Assembly (NCBI GenBank): GCA_004299845.1
Contig: CP036201.1
Span: forward strand, 868,001 to 932,000
DNA from: Verrucomicrobia bacterium S94
GTDB taxonomy: Bacteria > Verrucomicrobiota > Kiritimatiellia > Kiritimatiellales > Pontiellaceae
Reading direction: 5' to 3'
DNA: 64,000 nucleotides
Within the stretch, counting starts at the first letter, position 1; each line of letters starts with the position of its first letter. This document shows positions 9,353 to 55,436 of the stretch, in pieces. The notes beneath the pieces are model-generated. The model was given only the letters and a program-made list of their open reading frames with translations, ran no database searches and was not told the DNA's origin. The position numbers and the translations under genes were made by a program.

Positions 9353-9994
9353 TTGTATCCGGATATCTTCAAACACAGGGTGACCAGCTGTTATTCATCA
9401 GCGTCGAAACGGTTGCGCTTAAGGTTTTTGCGAATATAAATCAAAGCCGTTGAGCCGTCCCTGATTTCGCCGGCTTATGCCCGGAGCAACAGGAAAACGT
9501 CCTAAGCACTCGGAATGTCTGGAGTTGTCAGATCGATGCTCTTATTGAACCCGTTTTCCGGAGGATGGGAATGTGCATTCTGAAAGCTCCTTTTGTCGGG
9601 GCTTAGCGGTGAGGAAGAGAATGGAAGCGGTAGGGGATGGTGTTCTGCTGCGTTTCCGCGGAATGCAGGGAAGGGACGCTTCATCGAAGATCGGCATGAC
9701 TGGCTCAAAGTGCGGATGGATAGTTGTGTCTGTGCCGTACACGTTAGTGAATTTTGAGGTTGTATCAGTGAAATGTTAAAAATCTTTTAAATGTTAAAGA
9801 AAGCATTGATTCTTGTTTTTTAAGTCCGTTCTAATCTTTAATATATCATGTTTTTTAGTAGAATCTTGCTATCCAGTATGTCATTCACCGTAACGCTCTG
9901 AAAGGAAATAAATAATAAAAATCAACAAGAAATGATCGTTATTTTGTTGCCTGAGATCATTCGCATGAATATATTGTTTACAATCACAAAAAAG
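9353..9994. other. Intergenic region upstream of the polysaccharide locus
   Basis: About 640 bases without a gene I can support. Short open frames at 9502-9779 on both strands have no ribosome-binding site or recognisable composition. The last 200 bases are AT-rich. The segment AAATGTTAAAGAAAGCAT (9789-9806) recurs with one change at 13702-13719, at nearly the same distance (282 versus 287 bases) from the start codon of the paralogous gene. Promoter DNA was therefore probably duplicated together with the gene. Confidence 0.5.
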
Positions 9995-10050
9995 GCCGCT
10001 GACCTATGCTTCGGGGCTAGGTCGCATGTCATATGTTCATTGTGGGCGGC
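9995..10050 (+). promoter_or_regulatory. Conserved structured 5' leader, copy 1
   Basis: Outer stem GCCGC (9995-9999) with GCGGC (10046-10050). Inner stem GACCTA (10001-10006) with TAGGTC (10018-10023), enclosing a loop with CGGGG. The same arrangement precedes the paralogue at 13989, with paired changes in the inner stem. It ends 20 bases before the start codon, ahead of a GAGGAG ribosome-binding site, so it could act on translation initiation. It matches no riboswitch class I know. Confidence 0.5.
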
Positions 10051-10070
10051 TGTTATGAGGAGATGATGAA

Positions 10071-13000
10071 ATGAAAAGACTGATGTTATCGGTGTCGTGT
10101 GCCTGTATGGCGGCGTTATCGGTTCAGGCTGTTGAGTTGTTCAGCGAGGATTTCAGCACCTGGTCCGATGGGGATATCAATGGTATCAGCGGTTGGATAG
10201 CTTCTACCAACGGCTGGACTAATGCGGTCGTCAACGGGGAACTTATGCTTGAGCCGGCTGGAGACCGTATCATGAATTCAACAGCGGGTGCTGAACTGAA
10301 TGTCGGGGAGAGTGTTCGCCTAACCATGGATTATCGGGTCTCTGTAGCCCCTGAGCGTCGGCATAGCGGCTGTTTCGGTTTCGGTATTCAAACCAATGAT
10401 TCCGCTGTGGCCGGATCCTCTGACGAACTCATCAATGCCTATATGTTTATTTTCGGTCAGGAAGCTTCCTCTCGTGCGGATGGCCAGGTGCATTTTTTTC
10501 CGGATAATCAGCAGTGGAACGGTCCGGGAACCTATGTGATGTCCGGGGCGGATTGCGGTATGAACCCATATGGATATTATACCAATGCGGCACCGTATGA
10601 TGATGTGGCGTACATTGATGCGGATTCAGATGTGCTGCGTTCAGTTTATACGGTGACAAAATCGCATATCACCAATCAGTTTAACATTACGGTTTCAACC
10701 AGTAACCTGTCATCCGGGGTTTATTATTCCGGATCGGATTACGCCATTGAGCGTCCGGCGGCCTGGGCGGCTCCTGCACTGTATGCAACGCTATACGGTG
10801 CCGGCGGAGATCATGCCGGAAATACCAATTATATTCAGAAAGTTACGTTGGAGAAGCTTCCGGTATCCATTGATGCCCCGACCGGTGTTGGTGCCTTGGG
10901 GCTGGATGGGCAGGTTGATCTGACCTGGAATATTATGCCGGGTGCGACGGAATATGATATTTTCAGAACGGAAACGGCCGGTGATTATTCGGGGGTAACG
11001 CCGATTACGGTGAGTTCGGAAAGCTACAGTGATACTTCCGTAGTTAACGGAACGACTTATTATTACTCGATAGTTGCAAAATATGCAGACGGTGATTCGG
11101 CAATGTCGGTTGAAGTCAGTGCAACCCCGAAAACGATCTACAGTGATACGCTGGTCTATTCCACTGATTTCAGCGGAATGAACGGTGATCTTGCGGGTGA
11201 TGCTGAGTGGTCGGCCGTTTCCGGTAGCAGCAATAATGCATTTAATGTGATTACCGATGCGGGGACCAATTGGGCGGACACGGTTTCGGTTTCCAATTTT
11301 TTTGATGAAACTGTAGGTAACGCGGTGTATTTGGATCGTCTGATCCGCAATGATGTAGATGATGCGGTTGAGGGTTCGTTTGATGTGGTGGTCAGTGTGA
11401 CGGCTTCCGGAACGGATGATTCGGATCATAACAACCAGGGAGTGTTGAGTTTCGGTATCACCAGCTCCTCTACTGAAGCGTTGGATGCGGATAAAGCCAT
11501 GATGGCCATGTTCTATCTGGGCGTCCGTGCTGAAAACAATATCTATGTGACTTTTGGTCAGGAGGGCAATGACATTGATAGTAACCGTTTGGCTTTTCTC
11601 GGTTGGAGTGAGGCCGGATGGAACCCGAAACCGGTCGAAGCTGTAAGCAAGTCCTGGTTGGGGAATCCTGCTGCTCCACGTGATCTGGTCACAGATCTTC
11701 TTCGTGTCCGCTGGAAAATCCGTAAAACGCGCGAGCCGGGCGTTTATCAGGCCTGGGCATCGCTGTCCAACACGGTCTCCGGTGTTGTTAACACGACTTC
11801 CACTCTGATTGAGTTTGAAACTGATACTATGCAGGAAATGTACGATGCAGTTGCTGGTGTATTTGCAATGGGTCGTCATCCCAATGCGAAAAAGGCGGAG
11901 TACAATTCCGAGCTCTTTGCTGCGGTGGAAAATGTGAGTATTTCACATTCGTCCGGCAACCTTCCTGAGGTGATTGCGCCGACCGTGACCAGCGTTCTTT
12001 CCGGGGACCGTTCGGTCATCATCGAATGGGAGCCGGTGCTGGATGCGCTTGGAGGGTATACACTGACTGTGGAGACTCCGGATAATGAGGTCTATGTTGT
12101 CGCCGATGGTATCAGCGAAACCACATTCACCGATGCACCGCGCTGGAATGGTGAAACCAATACGTATACACTGACGGCCAACTTTGATTCGGATCTTGCT
12201 CCGAATACGGCCAGCACGAACTTTGCTGCTGCCCCGATCGGGCTGGAAACGGTTTTCGCTATGGATGGCAGCTACGGAGCCTATGTTGTTGACTTTGTAG
12301 CAAGCAATTCGGTGATTACCAATGCCGGTAATACCGTGCGGTATGTTGATTATCTTTCAACCCCGCTGTTTGTAAAAGATGAGAACGGGTATACCGGTCC
12401 TACGCTGTATGCCCTGCTGCAGCAGGATATTCATGAAAATACGGCTAACTTTTATGCGGAAGCCAGTACGGATGGCGGCGGAAAAATCGGTCTGAGTACG
12501 TCAGCGTGGAATGCCTTCGGTAACGGGCTGTTCTTTATGCCGGTGTCGGATATGGGATACGGCGCGTCGACGCTTGATGCGGTCAATAATGCGCCGCTGA
12601 GCACCTATGTGTATTTCGGCAGCTGGACCTGGGGTGCAGGAAACGGTTCTGTGCGCGCCGCTGTGCGTAACGGCAGTACCTGGTATGTCAGTGGCACCAA
12701 ATATGCCGCCAATTACATTTCCGGTGGTGAACCCAAACCGGTATTTGTTCCGGATGTAGCGGCGGAAACGTGGTATGAACTCGATATTTCTGACCCGTCG
12801 GTTCATCTGGCACCAGGTGCATCAACAGACGGAAGTGGATTCACGGACGTCAATGCAATGGGCTGGTACTTTGACAATGCGGCAAATGCCTATGTTTACG
12901 AGATGGAAGTTAAAATCTCCGGAGCTTTGGGGTCCTATGACTATTGGGCGCTGAACAGTGGATTAGTCAGTTCCAATTCGGCTGCGGGTCTCGACCCGGA

Positions 13001-13328
13001 TGGTGATCTGGTTGTAAACAGCATTGAGTATGCTTTCGGTGGTGATCCGCTGGATCCTGAAAATGTCGGAAATCTGCCTGTAATGGATGCGTCGGTTTAT
13101 TCAGAACCGGGTACGGGGGATGACGCTTTCGTTTATGTCTACCGGAAGCGGCGCGATCCCATCAGTGGTATCACTTATAATCTGAAATCCACGGAAAACC
13201 TGATGACCGGTTGGAGTTCGGCTTCCTTTACCGCAGAGGAATCAGTCCTGGATTATGAGTGGATGGTAGTCACGAACTATCTTCCGCTGACATCGGATCA
13301 GTTGTTTATTCAGCTCGATGTTGAATAG
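10071..13328 (+). CDS. Giant secreted FN3 / lamin-G-like protein, paralogue 1
   Basis: A 1085-residue exported protein of unknown function. Signal peptide MKRLMLSVSCACMAALSVQA. Residues 21-265 form a concanavalin-like beta-sandwich module (DFSTWSDGDINGISGW, then SVRLTMDYRVSV). One fibronectin type III domain lies at about 268-354 (VDLTWNIMPGATEYDIFRT ... TTYYYSIVAKYADG). A second sandwich module follows at about 360-645, then another FN3-like unit (SVIIEWEPVLDALGGYTLTV) and a further beta-rich region. A C-terminal module at 972-1085 has a calcium-loop-like DPDGD and ends in LDVE. No glycosidase or lyase catalytic motif is evident. It may bind or present algal polysaccharide, inferred from the locus. 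A good GAGGAG site precedes the ATG. A paralogue of equal length follows. Confidence 0.85.
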   Translation: MKRLMLSVSCACMAALSVQAVELFSEDFSTWSDGDINGISGWIASTNGWTNAVVNGELMLEPAGDRIMNSTAGAELNVGESVRLTMDYRVSVAPERRHSGCFGFGIQTNDSAVAGSSDELINAYMFIFGQEASSRADGQVHFFPDNQQWNGPGTYVMSGADCGMNPYGYYTNAAPYDDVAYIDADSDVLRSVYTVTKSHITNQFNITVSTSNLSSGVYYSGSDYAIERPAAWAAPALYATLYGAGGDHAGNTNYIQKVTLEKLPVSIDAPTGVGALGLDGQVDLTWNIMPGATEYDIFRTETAGDYSGVTPITVSSESYSDTSVVNGTTYYYSIVAKYADGDSAMSVEVSATPKTIYSDTLVYSTDFSGMNGDLAGDAEWSAVSGSSNNAFNVITDAGTNWADTVSVSNFFDETVGNAVYLDRLIRNDVDDAVEGSFDVVVSVTASGTDDSDHNNQGVLSFGITSSSTEALDADKAMMAMFYLGVRAENNIYVTFGQEGNDIDSNRLAFLGWSEAGWNPKPVEAVSKSWLGNPAAPRDLVTDLLRVRWKIRKTREPGVYQAWASLSNTVSGVVNTTSTLIEFETDTMQEMYDAVAGVFAMGRHPNAKKAEYNSELFAAVENVSISHSSGNLPEVIAPTVTSVLSGDRSVIIEWEPVLDALGGYTLTVETPDNEVYVVADGISETTFTDAPRWNGETNTYTLTANFDSDLAPNTASTNFAAAPIGLETVFAMDGSYGAYVVDFVASNSVITNAGNTVRYVDYLSTPLFVKDENGYTGPTLYALLQQDIHENTANFYAEASTDGGGKIGLSTSAWNAFGNGLFFMPVSDMGYGASTLDAVNNAPLSTYVYFGSWTWGAGNGSVRAAVRNGSTWYVSGTKYAANYISGGEPKPVFVPDVAAETWYELDISDPSVHLAPGASTDGSGFTDVNAMGWYFDNAANAYVYEMEVKISGALGSYDYWALNSGLVSSNSAAGLDPDGDLVVNSIEYAFGGDPLDPENVGNLPVMDASVYSEPGTGDDAFVYVYRKRRDPISGITYNLKSTENLMTGWSSASFTAEESVLDYEWMVVTNYLPLTSDQLFIQLDVE

Positions 13329-13428: not shown

Positions 13429-13913
13429 GGCCATGTCGATATGTCAGGGCATAGAGAAAATTTTCGTATTCCTTATATCGTACTGTGGATGAACCAAAGG
13501 AAGGGAGTTGTTGGATATTTATCTGAGCGTCGGGAGCCGTGCTCCGGTTGAATTGCACATCAATGTTGGAGAGGCCGGCGGGACAGGTGCGCTTTATCGT
13601 GAAAACTGTGCGGTTTTCTTAGCTGTATCAAAATCAGTATTGAGTGCTGGAGATCGGGTGTTAGTTGCGAAGGGTTGGCTGTGAAAAGTACAAATAAATT
13701 GAAATGTTAAAGAAAACATAAAAAGCGATATTTACCCCTCTGTTGTTGGGATTGCTTATGCGTTAAATGATCTGATCCCTGTTCTTTTGGTCAGTATTGA
13801 AATGCGGGAAATATTAGAAAAAAACGGTGATAATTGGATTTTGTGTTAAATATTAACTTTTTCTGGTTGCATGAGAATGTGAACAAAATTATCTTGTAAA
13901 AGATCGGGAAAAG
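13429..13913. other. Intergenic region upstream of paralogue 2
   Basis: About 485 bases without a supportable gene. The 3' half is AT-rich. It contains AAATGTTAAAGAAAACAT (13702-13719), the counterpart of the element upstream of paralogue 1. The rest of the region has diverged from that copy. Confidence 0.5.
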
Positions 13914-13968
13914 GCCGTTAACCTGACCGTGGGGTTAGGTTGCATGTTAAGTGTTCGTTCTGGGCGGT
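13914..13968 (+). promoter_or_regulatory. Conserved structured 5' leader, copy 2
   Basis: Outer stem GCCGT (13914-13918) with GCGGT (13964-13968), held by two G-T pairs at the ends. Inner stem AACCT (13920-13924) with AGGTT (13937-13941). Compared with copy 1, the G-C pair at the base of the inner stem is replaced by A-T, a compensated change. The single-stranded core GGGG(T)TAGGT(T)GCATGT is conserved. It ends 20 bases before the ATG. Confidence 0.5.
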
Positions 13969-13988
13969 CGATCAAAAGGAGAGATGAG

Positions 13989-16900
13989 ATGAAAAGACTA
14001 CTTTTATCGACGTCATGTGCTCTCATGACGTCGATTTCATTACAGGCTCAGGAAATCATAAATGTTGATTTCAGCAGCTATGCCGACGGGGCCATTGCCG
14101 GCACAAACGGATGGGTTACCGGCGGCACGCACAGCATTGTCAACGGAGAGCTTCAGATTACCGGAGATGCATCGGATATCCTGTATTCAGGTGCCGGTGC
14201 CACAGTCCAGGTCGGTGACCGCGTGCAGATCACAATGGATCATTATGTTCAGGCGAATTTTTACGGGGAGCGTGCGCATGGCCAGTTGTTTTCGTTTGGT
14301 TTGCAGACGAATGCAACGGTCGCTACCGGCAGCTCGTCAGACCGCATTTATCCTAATATATACCTGTGGGGAGCGGAGTTAAACCGTATGGATGGTACGG
14401 TCAGCGTAATGCCGGACCAGACTCAATGGAGTGTGAATCCAATTGCGCTGGATGCGCTGGATGACTGCGGCTTCAATCCCTTTGGGTATGATGCTGTTTC
14501 CGGTACGGATATGGCCGACGAGGTTATCACCCGTTCGGAGGACTTCCGGACCGTCTATACTGTCACTAAATCCCATGTGGAAAATCTGTTTAATGTTGAG
14601 GTGACCACGAGTAACAGCCTGACCGGTACACTGACGACCTCTCTGGCAGAGATTGAGCATGCCGGTCTCTGGGAAGCATCGACGTATTATCTGTTCCTTG
14701 ATGGAATCAATCGCGTCGGGCTTACCAATATGGTTAAAAGTATTAAGGTTGAGCGCCTTGATCCGGTTATTGCAGTTCCTGCGGGTGTTTCTGCTCTCGG
14801 GCTGGACCAGGAGGTTTCGCTTTCTTGGAATATTATGCCCGGTGCAACGAATTATTATATTTACCGGACTCAGACTGCCGGTGACTATGCAGGTGTGACG
14901 CCGATTGAGACCACATCGGAATCCTATCTCGATCAGGGACTGACGAATGAAACGACGTACTATTATTCGATTGTTGCGGCCTATCACAACGGCACCTCTG
15001 CGATGTCAGCAGAAGTTGCAGTGACTCCGAAGCAGATCTATATTGACGAATCGGTTATCAGTACCACATTCAGTGCTGAAACGGCAGGTTCAGATCTGGC
15101 CGACAGTGCAGACTGGAATGCCATCTCCGGTTCCGGCAGCAATGCGTTTACTGTTGTGGATAATGCAGGGACCCAGTATGTGGATACCACACCGACTACA
15201 GCGGACTTCGATGCTGCAGGAAATGCTGTCTATCTGGACCGCCTGCTTCGCAACGACGAAGACGATACGGTGGAAGGATACATGGATATTTCGGTCAGCG
15301 TGGACGGCTCGGTGATTACTAATCCGGACGGTGCCGTTTTCGGTAATAACGGCGTACTGGACTTCGGTCTCACGTCTGATACGGTAACTCCGCTGGACCC
15401 TTCAGGAACAGACAGTGCTCTATTCCATCTTTACATACGCTTCGGTATGAACATGGGTATTATCTTTGGCGGATACGGAACCACAACGGAGCTTGCTTAT
15501 CTTTCACGAGAGGAAGCCAACTGGAATCCGAAACTGAATAACTGGAATTCCGGTGGCGGTGGACTCGATTATGAAACCGACAAGATCCGCATTCGTTGGA
15601 AACTTCGTAAAAGCCGGGTAGACGGTTATTATCAGGCCTGGGTGAGCATGTCCAATATGGTGAGCGGCGTTGTGGATTCCGGAACTGTGGAATTCGATAC
15701 AGCAGAAATGCCGGAAATGTATAATGCTGTTGCTTCTCTGTTTACATTCGGACACTCCGCAAAAGCGAAGCAGGCTGAGAATGAGGATCTGCTTCAGGTA
15801 CAAGTTTATGAAGTTGGTATTAATCATATTGCGGATGTAAAACCGATTGCGTCGGTACCGAATATCACCAGTGTAGTGAGCGGAGACCGTTCGGTTATTC
15901 TGGAATGGGATCCGATCTTTGAATGTATCGGATACTCGATTGAAATGGTTGATCCCCGTAGTGAACTGGAGGTTGTGGTTCAGAACTATCAGGAATCAAG
16001 TTATACGGATGAACCGCGCTGGAACGGTGAAATGAACACGTATACGCTGTATGCGCATTTCGATGCCGATGCGGAGCCGACGGATGTCACCAGTACATCC
16101 ACCAACGGTCAGGCCGTGGCTTTGCAGCCGGTCTGCCATGCCGCTGAAGATGACTGGGCCACCACGAGTCTGACATTCGGTATGGACGGAAACTGGGAAG
16201 TTGAAGGAGACATTATTTATGTCGACCGCACGGAACAGCCGTTCTTCACGCAGGGGGTTGATAATTACACCGGACCTACGCTTTATGGAATTCTGCAGGG
16301 GCCGGCCCTGACCGGTTCGGCGGATGCCGGCGTGGCAACCAATGACTGGCTGAAAATAGAAGCCTTGGCTTCGGGCCCCGGCTCGATTGCATTCGGTGGA
16401 AGCGGGCAGATCTGGAACTATAATCCGTTTCGCCGTCTGCTGGCTTATTCAGAAGTGAGCGACCTGGATTTTGAAGGGGCGGCGTCTTTCGATGCCACCA
16501 CTTCTGCACTGTACATGAAGGTGCGCACCGGACCGGGCGGATGGACCAACGGTAATAATGGCGGTCTGTATACTGCGATCCGGAATGGAAACACCTGGTA
16601 TGTAACCGCGAATCCGACTCCGATTGTAGGCGGAAACGGTTCTGCGCCCTCTGAGCGTGTAGCTCTCACACCGGATGTGGATAATGAGGAGTGGAATGAG
16701 CTCAACATTAGCAATCCCGGCACCCGGCTGAGTCCGGGCACGGCGCTGTCGGATACCAGCGTCTTAACGAATATCACCGCGGTCGGTTTTCTGGTTCAGG
16801 ATGTCTTCAGTGGTAACATCACCGAGTTTGAGGTTCAGACCTCCGGTGCACTGCCTTCATATGACTACTGGGCAGAAGGGTTTGACGGCTTCACCAACGC

Positions 16901-17252
16901 TGCACCGGAACTGGATGCAGACGGTGACGGAGTCATTAATGAACTGGAGTATGCGTATAACGGCGATCCCACCGATCCGGAAAATGTCGGGACACTTCCC
17001 AAGTTAAATCTTGATGCGGGACAGACTGAGCCAGGCAGCGGTGATGACGTATTCACTTATGTCTATATTAAACAGCGCAATCCGGATGCAGGCATTACGT
17101 ATAATCTGAAGGCAACCGAAAACCTGACGCTGGGCTGGGAGCCGGCAACGTATACTTCGGTGGAGGAAAATCTAAACTATTACTGGACGGTGGTTACAAA
17201 CTACATTCCGGTAACAGCGGATCAGACCTTCATTACGGTGGAAGTAGAATAA
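13989..17252 (+). CDS. Giant secreted FN3 / lamin-G-like protein, paralogue 2
   Basis: A 1087-residue exported protein, a tandem paralogue of the one at 10071 along its whole length. It has a signal peptide (MKRLLLSTSCALMTSISLQA), an N-terminal sandwich module, an FN3 domain with the near-identical core SWNIMPGATNYYIYRTQTAG, a second sandwich module (VRIRWKLRKSR-like, here DKIRIRWKLRKSRVDGYYQAW) and a second FN3-like unit (SVILEWDPIFECIGYSIEMV). The C-terminal module has the loop DADGDGVINELEYAYNGDP and ends in TVEVE. The start at 13989 has an AGGAGAG site; the frame continues 20 codons upstream through the leader, which I exclude. No catalytic motif is recognised. It is co-located with agarase-type enzymes. 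Confidence 0.85.
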   Translation: MKRLLLSTSCALMTSISLQAQEIINVDFSSYADGAIAGTNGWVTGGTHSIVNGELQITGDASDILYSGAGATVQVGDRVQITMDHYVQANFYGERAHGQLFSFGLQTNATVATGSSSDRIYPNIYLWGAELNRMDGTVSVMPDQTQWSVNPIALDALDDCGFNPFGYDAVSGTDMADEVITRSEDFRTVYTVTKSHVENLFNVEVTTSNSLTGTLTTSLAEIEHAGLWEASTYYLFLDGINRVGLTNMVKSIKVERLDPVIAVPAGVSALGLDQEVSLSWNIMPGATNYYIYRTQTAGDYAGVTPIETTSESYLDQGLTNETTYYYSIVAAYHNGTSAMSAEVAVTPKQIYIDESVISTTFSAETAGSDLADSADWNAISGSGSNAFTVVDNAGTQYVDTTPTTADFDAAGNAVYLDRLLRNDEDDTVEGYMDISVSVDGSVITNPDGAVFGNNGVLDFGLTSDTVTPLDPSGTDSALFHLYIRFGMNMGIIFGGYGTTTELAYLSREEANWNPKLNNWNSGGGGLDYETDKIRIRWKLRKSRVDGYYQAWVSMSNMVSGVVDSGTVEFDTAEMPEMYNAVASLFTFGHSAKAKQAENEDLLQVQVYEVGINHIADVKPIASVPNITSVVSGDRSVILEWDPIFECIGYSIEMVDPRSELEVVVQNYQESSYTDEPRWNGEMNTYTLYAHFDADAEPTDVTSTSTNGQAVALQPVCHAAEDDWATTSLTFGMDGNWEVEGDIIYVDRTEQPFFTQGVDNYTGPTLYGILQGPALTGSADAGVATNDWLKIEALASGPGSIAFGGSGQIWNYNPFRRLLAYSEVSDLDFEGAASFDATTSALYMKVRTGPGGWTNGNNGGLYTAIRNGNTWYVTANPTPIVGGNGSAPSERVALTPDVDNEEWNELNISNPGTRLSPGTALSDTSVLTNITAVGFLVQDVFSGNITEFEVQTSGALPSYDYWAEGFDGFTNAAPELDADGDGVINELEYAYNGDPTDPENVGTLPKLNLDAGQTEPGSGDDVFTYVYIKQRNPDAGITYNLKATENLTLGWEPATYTSVEENLNYYWTVVTNYIPVTADQTFITVEVE

Positions 17253-52371: not shown

Positions 52372-52507
52372 GGTTCCCGGCAGGCGTGTTGAGCGTCGGC
52401 ATCCGGATGACGAAATCGGGTTAACCCCGTCAGGGCCGGAAGGCAGCAGCGGTACACCATGTTTTTCGGGTGTCCGGACCCGCTGGCGGGAGCGACTGCC
52501 GGGGGCC
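52372..52507 (+). ncRNA. ffs: Signal recognition particle RNA (4.5S-type)
   Basis: The conserved SRP apical core is present: GTCAGGGCCGGAAGGCAGCAGC lies at 52429-52450 with the GGAAG loop and symmetric internal loop. The two ends pair over 12 bases (GGTTCCCGGCAG at 52372-52383 with CTGCCGGGGGCC at 52496-52507, some G-T pairs), giving a single long hairpin of about 136 nt. No Alu domain is visible. It lies 34 bases before dnaX. A separate hairpin (52338-52369) directly precedes it. Confidence 0.88.
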
Positions 52508-55361: not shown

Positions 55362-55436
55362 TCCGGCGTAGCTCAATGGTAGAGTAGGTGACTGTTAATC
55401 ACTTGGTTGCTGGTTCGAGCCCAGCCGCCGGAGCCA
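55362..55436 (+). tRNA. tRNA-Asn (anticodon GTT)
   Basis: A full cloverleaf with encoded CCA. Acceptor stem TCCGGCG / CGCCGGA, D arm GCTC...GAGT, anticodon stem GGTGA / TCACT around CTGTTAA (anticodon GTT at 55394-55396), and T arm with GGTTCGAGCC. The 3' end is a likely integration site for the phage-like DNA that follows. Confidence 0.95.

Follow-up and report, generated by a model that had tools for sequence, protein, structure and literature searches.

All copies of the structured RNA leader described here sit 5' of a gene for a large exported protein, and these genes belong to one broad family of the Pontiella group. The leaders probably constitute a new, small and lineage-restricted family of structured regulatory mRNA leaders that is not contained in Rfam. 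As the overall best explanation we consider it reasonably likely that the element works in cis, as a structured 5' leader on the mRNA, and tunes translation initiation and/or mRNA lifetime. It provides a compact and testable leader family, the genus of which includes cultured degraders of polysaccharides, and it ties this family to large exported proteins without a known domain. Moreover, it illustrates that two tandem copies in one raw window can open onto a family with real covariation. As the window we denote the whole stretch of DNA that was analysed (64,000 nucleotides).

The two leaders in the window

The window is part of a 4.1 Mb genome from the genus Pontiella or a very near relative (Kiritimatiellota). 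On its forward strand it carries an exported-protein gene at 10071–13328, which encodes 1085 amino acids with a signal-peptide-like N-terminus, and in tandem a second one at 13989–17252, whose product of 1087 amino acids is 45% identical to the first. For both proteins no match was obtained in Pfam or NCBIfam. On the 3' side of the two genes lies a cluster that comprises a porphyranase-type enzyme, a GH16 protein and also a sulfatase.

Each gene is preceded by one leader on the same strand. Copy a (9994–10051) comprises the helices P1 (9994–9999/10046–10051), P2 (10001–10006/10018–10023) and P3 (10024–10027/10033–10036), and copy b (13913–13969) the corresponding helices P1 (13913–13918/13964–13969), P2 (13920–13925/13936–13941) and P3 (13942–13945/13951–13954). 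The covariance model R1 described below, which was itself built partly from these two copies, assigns them 85.5 and 85.9 bits, respectively. The initial annotation had placed the leaders at 9995–10050 and 13914–13968, and sequences and coordinates were found as given there; with these boundaries both end 20 bases 5' of the ATG (10050 to 10071 and 13968 to 13989). The base pair of the inner stem that had been reported to change is indeed G-C in copy a (10001/10023) and A-U in copy b (13920/13941). The pairing of the outer stem is likewise kept, with the exchanges G-U/G-C and C-G/U-G, but its boundaries had been set short by one outward pair (9994–10051 and 13913–13969). The two-stem description itself was incomplete, as a third hairpin of the form GCAU-N5-RUGU (10024–10036 and 13942–13954) had been overlooked.

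A promoter-like site, as read from the sequence, lies 5' of copy a on the forward strand (9947–9975; TTGCCT, 17 bases, TATATT). It is followed by the predicted start-site region (9976–9993, forward strand), which is conserved and has the family consensus TTGTKTACGTTCRCAAATA. The promoter-like site of copy b is found at 13867–13895 on the same strand (TTGCAT, 17 bases, TATCTT).

Taken alone, copies a and b provide weak evidence. The two leaders are identical at 45 of 63 aligned positions, and their folding z-scores against shuffled sequences (−1.4 for a and −2.7 for b) represent a modest gain only. The covariation score of a, b and the orthologous copy c alone was equalled by 181 of 500 shuffles. 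Since the two genes are tandem paralogues (45% identity), the pair cannot separate selection from duplication and one double change proves little.

Further copies in the Pontiella group

Gene orthologues within the genus provided copy c (genome G040, gene 83% identical) and a diverged leader, d (G014, i.e. SZUA-494). Model R1, derived from a, b and c, was run against 43 genomes of the order. It matched copy f in Pontiella sulfatireligans with 22.8 bits and an E-value of 0.04 per genome (0.00029 in 53 kb). Copy f precedes a different exported-protein gene, the 839 amino acid product of which is only distantly related to the 1085 amino acid protein (BLASTP E 2e-7). Homologues of this product led to copies g and i, located before two tandem genes of G017, and to copy h in the genome of the window. 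A second model, R2, was built from seven copies with G005 not among its sources. In this genome it identified copy j blind (38.6 bits, E = 3.5e-5); there, too, the promoter-like site is present and 19 bases separate the element from the ATG. In total this amounts to eight leaders in five Pontiella-group genomes and one diverged, probable copy. The latter, leader d (L058:1856), has the promoter-like site, a P2 of 8 pairs and an extended P3, while its P1 has diverged and R2 misses it; we count it as a probable copy only. Leader e, located before a 1091 amino acid gene of P. sulfatireligans (L057:5780), was dropped because of a different promoter layout and a poor fit.

The covariance models thus gave further copies 5' of exported-protein genes, with pairing stems and more covariation, which supports the proposal of the initial annotation that the leader is a selected RNA element rather than a plain duplication. 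Its conserved core held in part: the blocks GGGG, TAGGT and GCATGT are common to both window leaders, but an exact search for GGGGNTAGGTNGCATGT with one mismatch allowed found the two window copies and no others in 40 genomes, so that these blocks are clade-specific and not the core of the family.

Among 388 genomes sampled across the phylum and 346 of the class, nothing credible was detected outside the genus. The single weak match outside the genus (G031) lies inside a coding repeat, and the weak model matches (E 0.02–5) that were read were located in coding sequence or terminator-like. In Rfam nothing near the leaders reached the gathering score, and none of its 4227 families matched the nine leader loci up to an E-value of 5, in line with the initial annotation, which could not match the element to a known riboswitch. 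A literature search on riboswitches yielded no paper that links them to Kiritimatiellota, nor one that describes a structured cis-regulatory RNA there.

Copy h (L072/L079, G000:C1:1791261–1793919) is the third leader of the window genome; its gene is interrupted by stop codons while all leader pairs are kept. Copies c, h and i/g (L078, L079, L080) share one syntenic site with a uvrC-like gene, an aldo/keto-reductase-like gene, a 600 amino acid exported protein and a 180 amino acid protein (names read from termini), and the window copies sit elsewhere. The pattern looks as if gene and leader travel as a unit.

Consensus architecture

From 5' to 3' the family shows the promoter-like site, the TTGTKTACGTTCRCAAATA stretch, P1, P2, P3, a joining strand, the 3' strand of P1, the Shine-Dalgarno sequence and the ATG. 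The promoter-like layout precedes nine of nine leaders (TTGNNN, 16–17 bases, a TAYMTT-like box and 17–18 bases to P1); promoter and transcription start are predictions from sequence alone. P1 has the consensus GGCCGY paired with GCGGYY, P2 is variable in sequence and loop, and P3 has the consensus RCAY, 3–5 bases, RUGU. The joining strand starts with YC and finishes with GG. The 3' strand of P1 is followed after 5–7 bases by a GAGGAG-type Shine-Dalgarno sequence and then by the ATG, with a distance of 18–21 bases between P1 and ATG in all eight copies. Copies of the element therefore recur at a fixed place relative to the start codon, as expected for a conserved cis-acting leader RNA. A reading of the GGGG..TTGCA block as a sigma-54 promoter was dropped, given that the spacing is wrong and the block is not conserved in f–j.

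Evidence for RNA structure

Across the eight copies, P1 to P3 form standard pairs in 112 of 112 cells, compared to 31–41% for slid controls. P2 pairs in all of its 32 cells although its sequence differs nearly everywhere; by position the pair types are GC/AU/GU, AU/GC/UG, CG/UG and CG/UA/UG. In a tree-preserving null, in which the substitutions were re-placed on the tree, a mean of 23.9 of the 32 P2 cells paired, and 32 were reached in none of 5000 trials. P2 thus covaries beyond phylogeny. For P1 (p 0.57) and P3 (p 0.1–0.5) the same null was not exceeded, both helices being too conserved for covariation power. Both phylogenetic covariation and low power have been pointed out as pitfalls of covariation analysis (PMC11234323). 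Our P2 result answers the former, and P1 and P3 are still subject to the latter.

MAFFT alone placed the 5' arm of P2 one base off in copies f–j, and an N was inserted by hand, which tilts the alignment towards the structure. Because the arm had been set by hand, we ran a control with free offsets in which whole P2 arms were swapped among the copies; here 46 of 40320 arrangements did as well. On the hand-adjusted alignment RNAalifold selected P1, P2 and P3 unaided. Single-sequence folding gave weak z-scores (−1.0 for c, 0.1 for f and −0.3 for h), and with coding sequence included P1 was often not the predicted fold. An alternative pairing, GUYC with GGGC, fits 99.1% of the cells, with one pair broken in copy c; it rests on invariant bases and is thus without covariation power.

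G-U pairs were found in 28 of the 112 cells and A-C in none. These counts point to a folding RNA of the sense (mRNA) strand rather than to a DNA operator. Altogether, we hold the part of our explanation that concerns an RNA element with high confidence.

Proposed role and alternative explanations

Post-transcriptional control, i.e. of translation or mRNA stability, is the likeliest role. The comparison shows a covarying P2 together with conserved flanks able to form both P1, which would close a junction, and the small hairpin P3. P2 would act as a spacer helix whose own sequence is irrelevant, while the conserved faces GGCCG, GCAY, RUGUYC and GGGCGG (P1, P3 and joining strand) could offer a recognition surface to a protein, a ligand or the 30S subunit. 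Either a protein or ligand bound to the P1/P3 core, which adjoins the ribosome-binding site, or the fold as such would then tune translation of the exported protein or the life of its message. An effect on translation initiation and/or mRNA lifetime is suggested by the end of P1 only 5–7 bases before the Shine-Dalgarno sequence; as a mechanism, we propose it tentatively.

The evidence speaks against a thermosensor, an attenuator or a leader peptide. An attenuator, which needs a terminator hairpin with a U run behind it, was rejected since by direct reading none of the three helices is followed by such a run in any copy. A leader peptide starting at the AUG of P3 was rejected as well: the AUG is absent in i and j, meets an immediate stop in c and is open into the gene in b. 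The thermosensor put forward in the initial annotation is at odds with the ribosome-binding site, which the element does not include and which the predicted folds do not pair consistently. Predicted accessibility of the Shine-Dalgarno sequence at 4, 25 and 37 °C showed no consistent shift, as would be required for a ROSE or fourU element. As neither a terminator nor a consistent masking of the ribosome-binding site by pairing was found, the leaders fit neither attenuation nor a simple thermosensor.

That the likeness of the leaders merely reflects recent copying of gene plus leader, with an unselected RNA, is hardly credible. Copies a/b and g/i do belong to tandem paralogues, f adjoins another family member and all copies share a common ancestry; however, the P2 arms have diverged almost fully with pairing kept in every copy, and the leader core is maintained before the distant 839 and 1085 amino acid proteins. 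That the leader acts at the DNA level, as an operator 3' of the start site whose inverted repeats are the half-sites for a transcription factor, appears very unlikely. P2 lacks the conserved half-site sequence that a DNA-binding protein needs, and the G-U pairs in a quarter of the paired cells, with A-C in none, break a DNA dyad but preserve an RNA stem of the mRNA strand. In favour of such binding, direct reading of the start-site region just 5' of the leader reveals a partial palindrome, TTGTG-N6-CACAA, that is possibly an operator and occurs in several copies (absent or weak in b, c and h), and LacI-family genes flank the gene of leader d in SZUA-494 (L058). Palindrome and flanking genes together suggest that transcription factors probably act at the leader promoter.

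The 5' leaders of ompA (E. coli) and slpA (Lactobacillus) stabilise the messages of abundant surface proteins. An intrinsic stabiliser or translation-standby structure of this kind, working without a trans-acting partner, would agree with the position near the predicted 5' end, the exported proteins downstream and the free Shine-Dalgarno sequence just beyond P1. Like those of ompA and slpA, the Pontiella leaders are folded, precede exported-protein genes and leave the Shine-Dalgarno sequence outside. In contrast to these, however, P1 and P3 are conserved in sequence beyond pairing, and the same fold occurs at several loci. A purely intrinsic role would not require the conserved sequence of P1, P3 and the joining strand; in addition, the roughly 10 unpaired 5' bases predicted are not ideal for 5'-end protection, which makes this reading rather unlikely. 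A riboswitch role is possible but unsupported. A two-state switch, in which a long P1 plus P3 would alternate with a short P1 plus the GUYC/GGGC hairpin and the P1/P3/joining-strand core would bind a small molecule, for example a sugar derivative, could explain why a conserved core surrounds a variable helix, why two mutually exclusive pairings are each compatible with nearly all copies and why the window genes sit 5' of a polysaccharide-use cluster. Yet there is no terminator or consistent pairing of the Shine-Dalgarno sequence, the alternative pairing lies on invariant bases with one of its pairs broken in c, and the element is confined to one genus while riboswitches are usually widespread, so that we regard a ligand-sensing riboswitch as improbable. 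We are equally doubtful about a genus-specific RNA sensor of ligand or protein that would coordinate large exported proteins with polysaccharide use, in which P3 and a six-pair P1 would toggle with the alternative GUYC/GGGC hairpin and a short P1.

For the preferred cis-acting leader, the closest resemblance among other known systems is as follows. Like the orphan cis-regulatory leader RNAs known from Rfam and comparative genomics, the Pontiella leaders were found by covariation, have short helices round a conserved core and precede one gene type, but they match none of the 4227 Rfam families and occur only in the Pontiella group among the genomes searched. With ROSE and fourU thermosensors they share a structured leader near the start codon, whereas their Shine-Dalgarno sequence does not belong to the element and shows no consistent change in predicted accessibility between 4 and 37 °C. 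With translational riboswitches they have in common a junction-type fold 5' of the ribosome-binding site and a possible alternative pairing, but the ribosome-binding site takes part in no conserved pairing.

Neighbouring elements

A LacI-operator-like palindrome covers the predicted start site at 9976–9993, with homologous sites before d, f, g, i and j; the best is found in g (TTGTGTACGTTCACAA). In other paralogues of this protein family the start site carries a different conserved motif, ATGTTAACNGTCNCG, which is often preceded by a TATAYCTC-like box; the upstream regions concerned are those of L011, L031, L034, L037, L040, L041, L043 and L044. Exact matches to ATGTTAACNGTCNCG number 10 in the genus and 0 for the reversed control. 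Many of these paralogues follow a gene for a NarL/LuxR-type regulator, with a CTATC-N4-GATAG-like site in between. The window also holds a bacterial small SRP RNA (Rfam RF00169) at 52394–52491 and a tRNA at 55362–55433.
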